Assembly: GCF_014334325.1 (NCBI RefSeq)
Contig: NZ_JACSET010000006.1
Span: forward strand, 135,149 to 199,148
Direction: 5' to 3'
DNA: 64,000 bases
Origin: Treponema sp. Marseille-Q4130
GTDB lineage: Bacteria; Spirochaetota; Spirochaetia; Treponematales; Treponemataceae
Shown: positions 2,987-52,784 of the stretch, one piece after another
Position numbering within the stretch: the stretch's first letter is position 1
Layout of the letters: every line of letters starts with the position of its first letter
The notes under the pieces: generated by a model
The model's input: the letters and a program-made list of their open reading frames with translations, nothing else
Told to the model about the DNA's origin: nothing
The model's database searches: none
Program-made: the position numbers and the translations under genes

Positions 2987-4378
2987 TCAGTGCAGGAAAA
3001 GAGACAGAATGAATATTTCAACGACGCCTGCGATACCGAGTACGAGCGTACCGAGTGTCTGCGTCCTATAACCGCGCTCGGGCGACATCGCGCCGAAGTT
3101 CGTGACGACCCAAAAATACGAATCGTTCGCGTGACTTACGGTCATGGCACCGGCGCCGATCGCCATACACGCGAGAGCCGCCCGCACCGGAGAATCGAGA
3201 CCGAGTACCGGAAGCAGCGGAGCGATGATGCCCGCCGAAGTTACGAGCGCGACGGTCGAAGAGCCTTGAGCCGTTTTCAAAATCGCCGAGAGTATAAACG
3301 GGAAGAGGATGCCCATCGTCTGGAGCACCGTCGCGTGCATTTTGATATAGTTCACCATATCGGAAGACGCGATAACTTTTCCGAGAACGCCGCCGGCAGC
3401 CGTGATAAACAGGATCGGACCGGTCACTTTGAGCGTTTCTTCGACGATAGCGTAAAAATCCTTTATTTTATCGGCGAGCTTGAGCTGGAGCACTGCAAAG
3501 GCGGTACCCACGCCGAGCGCGATAACCGGAGTTCCGAGAAATTTAACAACATCGATTCCGAAGCCTTGCATCTTTGCCATCGAGACAACGGATGACGCCG
3601 CCATGAGGAGAACGGGAACGACTATCGGCGCGAGCGCATTAAAGCCGTTCGGAAGTTTTTTAAATTCGGCGACGAGCTGTTCGTAGCTTTTCGTCACCTG
3701 TCCCGCATCGGCTTCATCATCCGCGCGTACGCGGGCACCGATGTATTTTGCAAAAAAATAACCTGCGATGAGCGGCAAAATAGAACAGAGCGCGCCCATG
3801 CCCATAACGAGCAAAAGGTTATCGCCGATACCGAGCGTATTCGCAGCGGCGATCGGGCCCGGCGTCGGCGGGATAAATACGTGCGAAATATACAAACCGA
3901 ACGAAAGCCCCGTCGTCATTGCGACGGAAGAAGCGGCGGTTCTGTTGACGAGCGCTTTGCGGATGGGGTTTAAGATAACGAAACCCGAGTCGCAGAATAC
4001 GGGAATGGAAACAACCCAACCCATGAGCTCTATGGCGAGAACGGGATGATTTTTCCCGACGAGATGAATGATCATATCGGCGAGTTTCAAAGCAGCGCCT
4101 GTTTTTTCGAGTATCGAACCGATGAGCGCACCGAGGATGATGACGATACCGATGCTCGTAAACGTGCCGGCAAAGCCCGCTCCGATGACGTTTGCAAGTC
4201 CCTGCACCGTTTTTCCGTCGGCGGTTTTCACGTTGACGAGCGGAATGCCGGCGATCAAGCCGAGCAGCAGTGAAATGCACATGATCGAAATAAAGGGGTG
4301 AATTTTAAATTTTGAGATCGCAAACACCATGACGATGATCGCAATGACAAAAACAAAAATAAACGGTAAGCCTGTCAT
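2987..4378 (-). CDS. GntP-family permease (gluconate or organic-acid transporter)
   Basis: A 463-residue inner-membrane permease of the GntP/CitMHS-type fold. It is hydrophobic throughout, with about 12 predicted membrane segments starting at MTGLPFIFVFVIAIIVMVFA. The stretches FIPPTPGPIAAANTLG and TAQGSSTVALVTSAGI are typical of gluconate/H+ symporters. The real substrate (gluconate, lactate, glycerate or another acid) cannot be read from sequence. The start at 4378 was chosen because GGGAGG lies 8 bases upstream; an in-frame extension to 4456 would lie inside the structured leader. The gene stands alone, and regulation probably acts through the leader at 4379-4700. Confidence 0.88.
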   Translation of the reverse strand: MTGLPFIFVFVIAIIVMVFAISKFKIHPFISIMCISLLLGLIAGIPLVNVKTADGKTVQGLANVIGAGFAGTFTSIGIVIILGALIGSILEKTGAALKLADMIIHLVGKNHPVLAIELMGWVVSIPVFCDSGFVILNPIRKALVNRTAASSVAMTTGLSFGLYISHVFIPPTPGPIAAANTLGIGDNLLLVMGMGALCSILPLIAGYFFAKYIGARVRADDEADAGQVTKSYEQLVAEFKKLPNGFNALAPIVVPVLLMAASSVVSMAKMQGFGIDVVKFLGTPVIALGVGTAFAVLQLKLADKIKDFYAIVEETLKVTGPILFITAAGGVLGKVIASSDMVNYIKMHATVLQTMGILFPFILSAILKTAQGSSTVALVTSAGIIAPLLPVLGLDSPVRAALACMAIGAGAMTVSHANDSYFWVVTNFGAMSPERGYRTQTLGTLVLGIAGVVEIFILSLFLH

Positions 4379-4711
4379 ATATAATGACCTCCCATAAAAA
4401 CTTTTGCAGGAAATAGCAATTTCCGAAAAAGTTTTTAGCCGTGCGCGTGCGCGCACACGTTCAATAGTCGAGTTTGCAAAATAAAGCGTATCGTATTCAT
4501 GCGATTTTTATCGAAACGGCACGTATACACGTCTTCTGCAAACATCCGCGCAAACTCGAGATAAGAACGCTGCGATTTCGAGCAATGCGCAGAAATCGCG
4601 AGTGTCTCCCATATATAGAAAAACGCTTCAGCGTTTTTCGTCTCCGGACTTTAGTGTCGGCGATATTTCAGACGACACTTTTTATCATGCCTCCTTTTTT
4701 TGTCAATTATA
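4379..4711 (-). ncRNA. Structured 5' leader, copy A (with -10 box), upstream of the GntP permease
   Basis: This untranslated region closely matches two others in the window, at 19630-19855 and 51219-51470. A TATAAT on the minus strand (4706-4711) would start a leader of about 320 nt. Helix I is AGTGTCG with CGACACT (4653-4659 and 4673-4679). Helix II is TCGAGTTTGC with GCAAACTCGA (4468-4477 and 4550-4559). Helix III is GTGCGC-GTGC-GCGCAC on the plus strand (4441-4456). Helix IV (4396-4436) has AAAAACTTTT paired with AAAAGTTTTT and an inner GGAAAT/ATTTCC. Copy A alone carries an insert of about 90 nt (4561-4652) with two more perfect hairpins (4572-4599 and 4618-4639). GGGAGG follows helix IV directly. 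The type ncRNA here means a cis-acting leader; its function is inferred. Confidence 0.75.
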
Positions 4712-5027: not shown

Positions 5028-5813
5028 ATGACGCAAAATGAACGGCGCATTTTTTTAATCGAATATCTTTTAAAGGAAAATCCCGGCTATCACGATGTAC
5101 AGATACCGGACGATGAGAATGAACAAAAACGCCTGCTCCGCTCCCTCATGAATGTCCGTCCGCCCGAGCCTGCAAGCGAAGGATTTTTGCGCATACAGGA
5201 CGAGTATTTACAGGAAGCAGGTCGAGAGCGCGGCATTACCGACTTTGCCGATTTAAGACCGGTTACCGGACAAGGCGGCGGGAATATGTACCTCTGGCAA
5301 GGGGACATCACGACGCTCAAAGTAGACGCGATTGTAAACGCGGCAAACAGCGGCATGACCGGATGCTGGCAGCCCTGCCACGCATGCATCGACAACTGCA
5401 TCCACACATTCTCAGGCATTCAGCTGCGCGCCGTGTGCGCCGACATTATGCAAAAACAGGGGCACGAAGAGCCGACGGGAAGCGCAAAAATCACTCCTGC
5501 ATTCAATTTGCCGTGCAAGTATGTGATCCATACCGTAGGGCCTATCGTGCAGGGGCGATTGCAAAAAAAACACGAAGAGCAGCTCGCGTCCTGCTACCGT
5601 TCCTGCCTTGAGCTTGCCGAGCAACATAAAGTGCGGAGTATCGCTTTTTGCTGCATTTCCACCGGGGTCTTTATGTTTCCGAATGAAAGAGCGGCGGAAA
5701 TTGCGGCGGAAACCGTCCGAAAATACTTCGAGCAAACCGAAAGCGGGATGAAAGTTGTTTTTGACGTATTCAACGACGAAGATTTTGCAATTTACAGCGA
5801 AATTTTATCATAA
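5028..5813 (+). CDS. Zinc-dependent macrodomain protein (protein ADP-ribosyl hydrolase type)
   Basis: A 261-residue macrodomain protein likely to remove ADP-ribose from proteins. The ADP-ribose-binding core begins with WQGDITTLKVDAIVNAANS near residue 90. The next segment, GCWQPCHACIDNCIHTFSG, is the signature of the zinc-containing bacterial macrodomains, in which Cys and His side chains hold a catalytic zinc. A second loop, CCISTGVFMFPNERAA, contacts the phosphates. The start has GAGGAA upstream and TATAAT near 4996. In some Firmicutes such genes sit with a sirtuin ADP-ribosyltransferase and lipoylation genes. Here no such partner is adjacent: the next in-frame sequence is a DUF523 fragment. 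Confidence 0.88.
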   Translation: MTQNERRIFLIEYLLKENPGYHDVQIPDDENEQKRLLRSLMNVRPPEPASEGFLRIQDEYLQEAGRERGITDFADLRPVTGQGGGNMYLWQGDITTLKVDAIVNAANSGMTGCWQPCHACIDNCIHTFSGIQLRAVCADIMQKQGHEEPTGSAKITPAFNLPCKYVIHTVGPIVQGRLQKKHEEQLASCYRSCLELAEQHKVRSIAFCCISTGVFMFPNERAAEIAAETVRKYFEQTESGMKVVFDVFNDEDFAIYSEILS

Positions 5814-19472: not shown

Positions 19473-19629
19473 GCCGATGACTGCGCGTGATTGACACGGC
19501 ATTTGATTTTGAATACAGTAAATTTATCAATGTTATCTGCTATGGATATCGTACGACAGAACAACGTAAAACCTCATTGTACTATCCCCAAAATTACACT
19601 TTTTCCGTCTTTAATATTCTTCACACAAC

Positions 19630-19855
19630 AAGGAGGTACGATAAAAAGCGCCGTCTGAAATATCGCCGTCGCTTTTTATCTCGAGTTTGCTTGGATGTTT
19701 GCAGAAGACGTGTATACGTGGCGTTTCGATAAGAATCGCATGAATACGATACGCTTTATTTTGCAAACTCGACTATTGAACGTGTGCGCTCACGCGCACG
19801 GCTAAAACTTTTTCGGAAATTGATATTTCCTGCAAAAGTTTTTATGGGAGTTAAC
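19630..19855 (+). ncRNA. Structured 5' leader, copy B, upstream of the FadL-like gene
   Basis: This is the second copy of the leader seen at 4379-4711 and 51219-51470. It opens with AGGAGG (19631-19636). Helix I pairs GATAAAAAGCG (19640-19650) with CGCTTTTTATC (19670-19680). Helix II pairs TCGAGTTTGC (19681-19690) with GCAAACTCGA (19763-19772) and encloses small hairpins. Helix III is GTGCGC-TCAC-GCGCAC (19784-19799). Helix IV (19804-19842) pairs AAAACTTTT with AAAAGTTTT around GGAAAT/ATTTCC. GGGAG (19846-19850) follows and ATG is at 19856. A weak promoter (TTACAC and TAATAT near 19590-19615) lies upstream. An open frame across 19487-19732 is not thought to be coding. Confidence 0.78.
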
Positions 19856-21115
19856 ATGAAGAGATCGATCATCGTCGCAGCGCTCGTCGCTGCAGTCGTC
19901 GGAACCGCGGCTTTTGCCAACGGTGTTGAAAACAAAACGAATATGAATCCCGGATACTTGCGAAATCCGAGCCGCAATGCGGAAACGAAGCGCCCCGAAG
20001 CGGTGTTTTACAATATCGCGGGTACGGGCTTTTTGGAAGACGGCCTGTACTTCGATGCAGGCAATCAATTCGTATTTAAAAAATACACGAACTCGTTTCC
20101 GAAAAACGCACTTCCTCCTGCTATCGTGGACGAAAAGGATTTCAGTGATACGACGACCGTGTGGCTCTACCCGAACGCCGACATCGTATACAAGCGCGGC
20201 CCCTTTGCCGTGTTCGGAAATTTCGGCATCTACGCCGGCGGCGGAAAACTTTCGTACAAAGACGGTACGACCGTAACAGCCGGTGCACTTGCAAGAAATC
20301 CCCCTCTTATCGCCGCCGCACAAAATCATTCGGTAGAGCTTTCGTCCATGACCTACGGAGAGCAGGTCGGATTTACGTACTGCCTGAAAAATTTTATCTC
20401 TTTTTCCGGCGCGCTGCGCCTGCTCCAGGCGACGCAATCGATGGAGTTAAAGAGCGATAATGCGGTTTTTGTCGGTGTTAACGGCGGAAACAAAGTGAGC
20501 TACGATGCAAGCGCGTTCGGCGTCGGCGGCGTGTTCGGCATCGACGTGCGCCCCTTCCCCGCCCTCACGCTTTCGACGCAGTTTCAGCTTCATTCCGATA
20601 TGAAATATGAAGTAAAGAACGCCAAGGGAAATATAGGAGCCGGACTCGGTATCGCGGACGGTGAAACGTTCCACACCGATTTGCCTGCGGTGCTGAACAT
20701 GGGAGCGGGCTATCAAGTGCTGAAACCGCTGTACGTATCCGCAAGCTTCAACTACTACTTCAACTCGTTCGCACAGCTCAATTCCGTACTCAGCAAAAAA
20801 TTCGGCAAATCCGACTACAGCGATTCGTGGGAATTGGCGGCGGGAGCGGACTACGACATCAACGATAAAGTGACGGCGAGTTTGGGATTGTCCTACGGCA
20901 ACCAGGGGACAAAGAAAACGGTAAACAACGCATTCAGCCCCGTTTTGGACAACATCGCGATCGGTACCGGCGTCGAATATCGGCCTATCGATAACCTCAC
21001 GCTCACGCTCGGCCTCTTGTACATACAGTATTTTAAGCAGGATTATGGAGCCAGTGAACTCAACAAGCAGATCTTTATGACGAGCATCGGTGCAACCTAC
21101 CGGCTCCCCATATAA
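19856..21115 (+). CDS. FadL/OmpP1-family outer-membrane beta-barrel protein
   Basis: A 419-residue protein with a signal peptide (KRSIIVAALVAAVVGTAAFA, cleaved near residue 21). The mature protein resembles FadL-type hydrophobic-compound channels: a short plug-like start (NPGYLRNPSRNAETKRPEA), then alternating aromatic and polar strands such as LYVSASFNYYFNSFAQ, and a C-terminal strand ending MTSIGATYRLPI. Treponemes carry several such homologues, thought to move fatty acids or other hydrophobic nutrients across the outer membrane; the ligand here is unknown. Start 19856 has GGGAG upstream and gives the signal peptide. The longer in-frame reading from 19784 is leader RNA. Confidence 0.82.
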   Translation: MKRSIIVAALVAAVVGTAAFANGVENKTNMNPGYLRNPSRNAETKRPEAVFYNIAGTGFLEDGLYFDAGNQFVFKKYTNSFPKNALPPAIVDEKDFSDTTTVWLYPNADIVYKRGPFAVFGNFGIYAGGGKLSYKDGTTVTAGALARNPPLIAAAQNHSVELSSMTYGEQVGFTYCLKNFISFSGALRLLQATQSMELKSDNAVFVGVNGGNKVSYDASAFGVGGVFGIDVRPFPALTLSTQFQLHSDMKYEVKNAKGNIGAGLGIADGETFHTDLPAVLNMGAGYQVLKPLYVSASFNYYFNSFAQLNSVLSKKFGKSDYSDSWELAAGADYDINDKVTASLGLSYGNQGTKKTVNNAFSPVLDNIAIGTGVEYRPIDNLTLTLGLLYIQYFKQDYGASELNKQIFMTSIGATYRLPI

Positions 21116-51218: not shown

Positions 51219-51470
51219 TATACTGTGCCGATTTGTATCACACAGGAGACATGGTAAAAAGCGCCGTCTAAACTATCGCCGTCGCTTTTTACCTCGAGTT
51301 TGCGCGGATGTTTGCAGAAGATGTGTATGCGTATTGTTTGATGATAGACGTATGAATATGATACACTTTATTTTGCAAACTCGATTATCTGACGTGTGCG
51401 CTCGCGCGCACGACTAAAAACTTTTTCGAAAGTTGCAACTTTCTGCAAAAGTTTTTATGGGAGTTTCTTT
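51219..51470 (+). ncRNA. Structured 5' leader, copy C, with promoter, upstream of the UraA-type permease
   Basis: TTTTCA (51196-51201), 17 bases and TATACT (51219-51224) would start a leader of about 240 nt. Helix I pairs GGTAAAAAGCG with CGCTTTTTACC (51253-51293). Helix II pairs TCGAGTTTGC with GCAAACTCGA. Helix III is GTGCGC-TCGC-GCGCAC (51396-51411). Helix IV pairs AAAAACTTTT with AAAAGTTTTT, and here its inner stem is GAAAGT/ACTTTC, a compensatory change from GGAAAT/ATTTCC in copies A and B. GGGAG follows, then ATG 51471. Cis-acting role inferred. Confidence 0.78.
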
Positions 51471-52784
51471 ATGGATTCATCGAAAATTTTAGGACCTCAC
51501 GACAAACCGCCGCTCGCGCAGTGGATTCCGCTGAGCTTTCAGCACGTGTTCGCCATGTTCGGCGCGACGATCCTCGTGCCGCTTTTGACGGGTTTGAGTC
51601 CGTCGACCGCGCTTTTTACCGCGGGTACAGGAACGCTCATCTACATCCTCATTACGGGAGCGAAAGTGCCGGCATTTTTAGGTTCGTCATTTGCCTTCAT
51701 CCCCGCGCTTATCGGAATCGGCGAGCAATACGGCGCCGCCTATGCGATGGGAGGGGCGATTTGCGCAGGTTTGTTCTACTGCGTCGTCGCACTCATTATT
51801 AAATTTACAGGCAAAGGCTGGATCGACAAAGCGCTTCCTCCGGTAGTCATCGGCTCGGTCATCGTAGTCATCGGTATGAACCTTGCGCCGACCGCGATCA
51901 AAGAAGCGATGTATGTCGGATCAAGCGGTGCGATGCAGGATTATTCGCTCGCATACGTGAGCATCGCAGTCGTAACGCTCGGCATCGCCATAGTCGCGAC
52001 AATTTTTTTGAAAGGGTTTTTCAACACGATTTCGATATTGATCGGACTTGTCGGCGGTTATATCTTCGCACTCGTCATGGGCGCCTTTTTCCCCGCATAC
52101 CGCGTCATCGATTTTTCAGTCGTGCGCGAAGCGAAGTGGTTTGCGCTCCCGTTTTTGCAAACCGATGCGACCGGTAAGTATTTTTGGCTCGCACCGAAAT
52201 TCAATTTCGTCGCCTCACTCACCTTCGTCATCGTCTCGCTCGCTACGATCTGCGAACACTTGGGCGATACGCTTACGACATCCCGTGTCGTCGGGAAGGA
52301 TTTTTTGAAAGACCCCGGCTTGCACCGAACGCTCGTCGGCGACGGCCTTGCGACGGCGTGGGCTGCAGTGTGGGGCGGTCCGCCGAACACGACATACGGA
52401 GAAAACATCGGCGTTATGGCGATTACGAAAGTGTACAGCGTGTGGGTTATCGGAGGGGCTGCGGTCATCGCATTCGTGCTGTCATTTTGCCAAAAATTCG
52501 GTGCCGTCATTCAAACGATCCCCGGCCCCGTGCTCGGCGGCGTTTCGATGCTCCTGTACGGACTCATCGCATCCAGCGGTTTGCGCACCCTCGTCGAAGA
52601 AGGCGTCGATTATAAAGACAAACGCAACCTGACGATTTCGTCGGTCGTCATGGTCATCGGAATCGGCGGCGGTATTTTACAGTTTACCGTCGGAAGCGAT
52701 TTCGTGTTCAGCTTGGGCGGAGTCGCGCTTTCGACCGTCGTCGGCATCATATTGAATTTAATAATTCCGAAAACGATGGAATAA
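51471..52784 (+). CDS. Uracil/xanthine permease (nucleobase:cation symporter 2 family)
   Basis: A 437-residue permease with 14 predicted membrane helices. LAQWIPLSFQHVFAMFGATI opens the protein. The family signature regions are seen in VGDGLATAWAAVWGGPPNTT and YGENIGVMAITKVYSVWVIG. By its NTTYGENIGV loop it is closest to UraA/RutG-type uracil transporters; xanthine use cannot be excluded. The start behind GGGAG at 51471 fits; the in-frame reading from 51396 is leader RNA. No pyrimidine-salvage gene is adjacent. Confidence 0.92.
   Translation: MDSSKILGPHDKPPLAQWIPLSFQHVFAMFGATILVPLLTGLSPSTALFTAGTGTLIYILITGAKVPAFLGSSFAFIPALIGIGEQYGAAYAMGGAICAGLFYCVVALIIKFTGKGWIDKALPPVVIGSVIVVIGMNLAPTAIKEAMYVGSSGAMQDYSLAYVSIAVVTLGIAIVATIFLKGFFNTISILIGLVGGYIFALVMGAFFPAYRVIDFSVVREAKWFALPFLQTDATGKYFWLAPKFNFVASLTFVIVSLATICEHLGDTLTTSRVVGKDFLKDPGLHRTLVGDGLATAWAAVWGGPPNTTYGENIGVMAITKVYSVWVIGGAAVIAFVLSFCQKFGAVIQTIPGPVLGGVSMLLYGLIASSGLRTLVEEGVDYKDKRNLTISSVVMVIGIGGGILQFTVGSDFVFSLGGVALSTVVGIILNLIIPKTME

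Follow-up and report, generated by a model that had tools for sequence, protein, structure and literature searches.

Three palindrome-rich sequences of one family lie in the 64,000-nucleotide stretch of Treponema sp. Marseille-Q4130 DNA analyzed here (the window), each directly upstream of a protein-coding gene (Table 1). The copies, A, B and C, align over the whole element except for the insert in helix I of A. The alignment bears out the first-pass annotation, which had described three leaders matching over nearly their full length in front of unrelated genes; Pfam places these genes in the GntP permease, FadL/OMPP1 barrel and xanthine/uracil permease families. Each copy contains, in order, hairpin I, helix II, hairpin III and hairpin IV, followed by a Shine-Dalgarno (SD) sequence and the start codon. 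The ribosome-binding site was thus correctly placed right after helix IV, and the paired differences in helices I and IV reported among A, B and C are present in the alignment. Copy B taken as DNA (19628-19855) has a more stable predicted fold than shuffled sequences (z -5.7), as does the copy B region taken as RNA (19600-19900; z -2.8). Functionally related downstream genes, as for a riboswitch or RNA leader, were not found, by Pfam family for the genes behind A, B and C and by eye for further downstream genes. Two other places in the window where the sequence differs from that of relatives (near 5813 and 15079) do not contain the element.

Table 1. Element copies, Shine-Dalgarno (SD) cores, downstream genes and Rfam TD-1 matches (window coordinates)
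Feature	Position	Strand	Remarks
Copy A	4389..4690	minus	302 nt, read from 4690 down to 4389; ~87 nt insert in hairpin I
Left SD core before copy A	4691..4694	minus	G-G-A-G; part of the original target
Right SD core, of gntP	4389..4392	minus	3' end of copy A
gntP start codon	4376-4378	minus	behind copy A
GntP-family permease gene	2987..4378	minus	PF02447; behind copy A
TD-1 match in copy A	4390..4568	minus	50.2 bits
Copy B	19636..19850	plus	215 nt
SD cores of copy B	left 19632-19635, right 19847-19850	plus	
FadL/OMPP1-type outer membrane protein gene	19856..21115	plus	PF03349; start codon 19856-19858; behind copy B
TD-1 match in copy B	19674..19849	plus	52.2 bits
Copy C	51249..51463	plus	215 nt
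SD cores of copy C	left 51245-51248, right 51460-51463	plus	
Xanthine/uracil permease-family gene	51471..52784	plus	PF00860; start codon 51471-51473; behind copy C
TD-1 match in copy C	51286..51462	plus	51.8 bits

A search of the whole window against Rfam at gathering thresholds returned tRNAs only. With lax thresholds, A, B and C all match TD-1 (RF03155) over model positions 1-120 (E ~1e-5), at scores that in every window copy stay below the TD-1 gathering cut-off of 64.5 bits. TD-1 covers helices II-IV of all three, so the layout, for which the first-pass annotation knew of no described riboswitch, is not undescribed. The window copies also share the TD-1 arrangement of helices II-IV ending at an SD upstream of a gene. 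All of six related loci match TD-1, one of them above the cut-off (L119, 65.5 bits). In three of these six, the opposite strand of hairpins I-III matches TD-2 (RF03162), below the TD-2 cut-off; TD-2 seems to be the same element as TD-1, read in antisense. The family is already catalogued, as a cis-regulatory RNA (TD-1) and as an sRNA (TD-2). TD-1 reportedly originates from Weinberg et al. 2017. Within the parts of the literature covered, which include PMC8040213 and PMC1590033 and have the founding paper outside their scope, there is no description of TD-1 as a mobile element or insertion.

The element is abundant. A DNA search of the Marseille-Q4130 genome (G000) with copy C recovered B at E 1.6e-63 and A at E 1.8e-51, and yielded 93 pieces in total, which group into 41 copies. 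A covariance model derived from nine natural short copies, two of them from other species, gave 108 matches at E<=0.01 in the same genome; ~99 were retained, some of them weak or partial, after nine rows were dropped (six opposite-strand hairpin-IV hits, two merged pieces and one partial). The 99 comprise 54 of type 1, to which the window copies belong, and 45 of type 2, as assigned by sequence patterns in a script that misfiled some rows. At E<=0.001 the totals are 102 in G063, 99 in G066, 98 in G000 and 97 in G136. Across the genus, 112 of 200 Treponema genomes contain a match (57 of 85 among the good genomes), counted with strict filters and at most 15 candidates scored per genome. In species with few copies the architecture is unchanged and the stems differ.

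The short form of the element is ~150 nt and the long form ~215 nt, and copies with extra hairpins are longer. Between the strands of helix II lie ~75 nt in long-form copies, as against a few bases in natural short ones. Type 2 includes tandem arrays, often lies after a gene end as judged by eye, and for the most part is not ahead of start codons. Head-to-tail arrays of three to four type-2 copies with a common boundary motif were seen at G000:C1:29016-29643, C14:91462-91904 and C2:59759-60205. Inserts occur at a fixed spot in hairpin I (L014, L015, L017, L021-L026, L061) and at a fixed spot in hairpin IV (L018-L020, L022-L024, L066, L193); L022-L024 have both of these modular inserts, as if copies had exchanged parts. 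Four copies (L057, L064, L065, L193) are truncated at the 5' end and start at nearly one place, between helix II and hairpin III, a pattern that could reflect a stalled polymerase, a founder deletion or a mobile unit of shorter length. Two further candidates for 5' truncation were rejected, L190 because it keeps a diverged hairpin I and L063 because it keeps helix II.

Comparison with related genomes revealed sites that do not contain the element. The site of copy A is empty in G063 and G066, where the upstream region and the gene are continuous through a single SD core; in the Marseille-Q4130 genome the element stands between the same flanking sequences and has an SD core at either side. In G074 the element is absent from this site and the SD is altered. 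At the site of copy C, G074 is empty and again runs unbroken through one SD core, and G063 carries the element. G066 also lacks the element there, but its sequence before the SD resembles the element 3' end, so a copy may once have been present and left this scar when it was lost. The copy B site is filled in G063 with a longer variant. A copy also precedes tpiA in the Marseille-Q4130 genome. No element match was found at any of 44 spirochaete tpiA loci searched (44 of 80 were fetched, one of them with only 108 nt upstream), and 27 of the 30 tpiA loci displayed have just a plain G-G-A-G ahead of the start codon.

A DUF2992 gene of G029 is interrupted by a divergent copy, which splits the coding frame exactly. 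The joined flanks form one open frame; the upstream piece matches positions 2-21 of the DUF2992 profile (21.1 bits, E 4e-4, below the cut-off) and the downstream piece positions 27-128 (29.4 bits, E 1e-6). The empty sites of A and C and this coding frame make it well supported that the element is an insertion. The first-pass annotation had named a shared ligand as one possible signal for the three leaders. With ~99 matches at many loci and empty sites in relatives, a riboswitch or sensor leader serving three transport genes is no longer our main reading, and we find dispersed insertion in its place.

Two other copies in the Marseille-Q4130 genome (C5:45722-45874 and C10:222293-222445) each have a long open frame on one side and a short one on the other. 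The ends of the short frames resemble an Rpn-family C-terminus (TIGR01784, below the cut-off), no protein family matched the long upstream frames, and PF12784 has 14 matches elsewhere in this genome. The parts on either side may belong together, perhaps as one gene split at an internal start site.

Copy-specific repeats flank the element, as target-site duplication would leave. Among 110 non-tandem type-1-like copies from many genomes (17 of 127 were left out as tandem or nested), the left and right flanks of the same copy score 6.22 on average, versus 5.38 (sd 0.11) for flanks of different copies, and 0 of 5000 permutations gave a value as high. Agreement extends at least three bases past the SD core in 13 of 73 copies, where 2.5 would be expected and the highest permutation gave 9; agreement of the bases before the core is likewise above expectation. 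The effect is partial: only some copies have a repeat that extends beyond the SD core, a common 5' start is kept in many, and the left spacer of copy C is not target-derived. We interpret the flanks in one of two ways: insertion at an SD duplicated the core and sometimes its neighbors, or the junctions combine sequence from donor and target. Because a filled site has SD cores on either side, the gene keeps one SD.

Type-1 copies are concentrated in front of genes. A same-strand start codon with a frame of at least 50 codons follows just downstream in 46 of the 54 type-1 rows, and in 35 of those 46 an SD-like motif lies within 15 nt of the start chosen by the script. The eight failures include two tandem neighbors and two misfiled type-2 rows; the rest are cut, truncated or located before short frames. 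For rough contrast, since the test applied to the copies allows a wider range, 61 of 381 G-G-A-G sites in the window pass a narrower start-codon test. The first-pass annotation took copies located mainly inside genes or far from start codons as the sign of an ordinary mobile repeat, and type 1 does not show that distribution. Position alone cannot tell a regulatory RNA from a mobile element, but empty sites can. The SD bias could arise from target choice by an enzyme, from loss of harmful insertions elsewhere, or from both; that the enzyme itself targets the SD is a reasonable supposition.

The four helices are supported by extensive covariation. In the alignment, 41 of 44 pairs change on both sides, and 95.6% of the cells are paired, versus 42-52% when the alignment is slid; within 24 copies of the Marseille-Q4130 genome, 26 of 44 pairs change on both sides. 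If selection acted on the fold as RNA, G-U should be tolerated much more readily than A-C. Among 111 distinct rows, the inner helix cells contain 15 G-U and 21 A-C of 3920, so the pattern in which G-U is tolerated and A-C is not was not found there. In the outermost pairs there are 81 G-U, and 76 of these fall at the feet of helices I and III, two positions where the bases may not truly pair. In 15 tRNAs the corresponding counts are 7 G-U and 0 A-C of 194 cells, a small and biased control because ARAGORN chose the pairs. Of the conserved RNA structure proposed in the first pass, the four helices with compensatory changes stand and the RNA-type pairing does not. That G-U is no commoner than A-C inside the helices argues that pairing is maintained in the DNA, and either the transposition process or palindrome correction would preserve the palindromes there; alternatively, an RNA might require perfect helices.

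After insertion, copies are conserved in place. In 14 of 15 orthologous pairs between genomes (12, two and one from separate comparisons), the element is at least as conserved as the DNA downstream of it. The element between a tsf-like gene and frr is identical at 131 of 131 positions in three species (G084:C29, G206:C1 and G134:C47), and the next 300 nt differ by 6-11% (identity 89-94%). Between G063 and the Marseille-Q4130 genome, a helix I pair of copy C has changed on both sides. These observations indicate that the structure is maintained in place, and some placed copies may be under selection there, or homogenized. Such conservation exceeds the constraint that a spent insertion should experience and counts against a purely mobile reading. 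It is also the best support for a regulatory role, and a regulatory function acquired after insertion is possible for some copies.

These data bear on a different explanation, in which the element is a cis-regulatory RNA leader that precedes many genes and answers a shared signal, its mobility being incidental. The location directly before start codons and the Rfam type Cis-reg are consistent with such a leader, as are the orthologous pairs, exemplified by frr, and the double change in copy C. The genes behind the copies are unrelated, sites are empty in relatives, one copy splits a gene, and the inner helices lack the G-U excess seen in the (biased) tRNA control. On balance we consider a primary role as RNA leader unlikely.

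We searched for an enzyme that could mobilize the element. The sole Y1_Tnp hit in the Marseille-Q4130 genome is a truncated IS200-like remnant of ~102 aa (G000:C12:13986-14192), and the 3.2 kb locus around it contains no element match. Y1_Tnp domains occur in 61 of 196 genus genomes. At 31 Y1_Tnp/RAYT loci, with ~1.5-2 kb of flank where the contig allows, no convincing copy was found; there were two weak matches (E 0.0085 and 0.11). RAYT-like Y1 genes (~250 aa; L358-L377; G197, G006, G161, G010 and others) have a different short palindromic repeat nearby, with a core seen by eye as G-G-T-C-T-G-T-C-C-C plus its complement, apparently a separate REP/RAYT system. A reverse transcriptase (RVT_1, PF00078) has no match in the Marseille-Q4130 genome and is present in 55 of 196 genus genomes, with one in the element-rich G136. 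Terminal inverted repeats of ~7 nt are visible by eye in some copies and absent in others, and no autonomous copy was seen.

Movement as single-stranded DNA by an IS200/IS605- or RAYT-type Y1 transposase, cutting 3' of a purine core in the target and at the right end and making no true target duplication, would account for the terminal hairpins, for the same core in target and right end, and for the common 5' start within subfamilies; copies A and C and the G029 copy fit it. The 31 Y1 loci lacking a convincing copy, the presence of only a Y1 fragment in the Marseille-Q4130 genome, the different repeat beside RAYT-like genes, and the copy-specific repeats that extend beyond the core all argue against it, and we regard it as improbable. 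We assign still less weight to a SINE-like retroelement whose RNA is reverse transcribed at a nicked target, which would generate 5' truncations and variable duplications. The four copies that start near one spot, where a polymerase may have stalled, and the varying length of the flanking repeats would suit it. But the Marseille-Q4130 genome has no RVT_1 match, the pairing is not RNA-like, and the truncations perhaps descend from one founder deletion, so that a retroelement appears very unlikely.

The element occurs in dispersed copies, with empty sites, copy-specific flank repeats, one split frame and a four-palindrome fold. From these observations we conclude that the three leaders are probably copies of a short, non-autonomous, four-palindrome mobile DNA element that inserts at an SD-like purine motif. 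Insertion at such a motif would leave one SD core upstream and another at the element 3' end, placing an SD at the normal distance from the gene. The palindromes may be needed as single-stranded or cruciform DNA by a putative enzyme acting in trans. A placed copy would form a structured 5' leader of its gene, and an effect on that gene may be the reason why some copies have persisted. Besides the conservation in place, the Y1 loci lacking a convincing copy, the Y1 fragment as sole hit in the Marseille-Q4130 genome, the partial repeats, the possible loss of the copy C element in G066, the altered SD at the empty copy A site of G074 and the location of type 2 mostly off starts count against this mobile element.

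More tentatively, and with rather less than even confidence, we suggest that the element represents a class of mobile DNA that targets the SD itself. Its enzyme would read the ribosome-binding site as DNA and regenerate the site, and the element would serve as an interchangeable 5' leader and later as a regulatory part, with TD-1 and TD-2 as its two strands. If the target preference is real, an insertion can land where a gene is most sensitive and yet leave it functional, and whole sets of genes could gain one common leader. The analysis reinterprets a structured RNA family known from Rfam as mobile DNA associated with the SD. It also carries a warning that covariation upstream of genes is not proof of a regulatory RNA, for which the count of G-U versus A-C is a simple check. 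The copies in 112 Treponema genomes precede core genes such as frr, dapA and tpiA, which makes an effect on expression directly testable.

TD-1 (clan CL00124) corresponds to the element in helices II-IV and in the 3' end at an SD in the three window copies and in all six related loci. It differs in that Rfam types it as a cis-regulatory RNA of 120 nt, whereas the unit that is inserted extends over hairpin I as well, is missing from empty sites and pairs in a DNA-like manner. TD-2, in the same clan, is typed as an sRNA gene and matches the opposite strand of the element in three of the six loci. MITEs and the palindromic repeats derived from REP/RAYT or IS200/IS605 systems are short, non-coding and multicopy, have hairpin ends and are presumably moved in trans. 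The element resembles these repeats also in its subfamilies, nested inserts and tandem arrays. Unlike them, it has no linked transposase at the Y1 loci searched and no clear terminal inverted repeat, and one of its subfamilies lies mostly at ribosome-binding sites.
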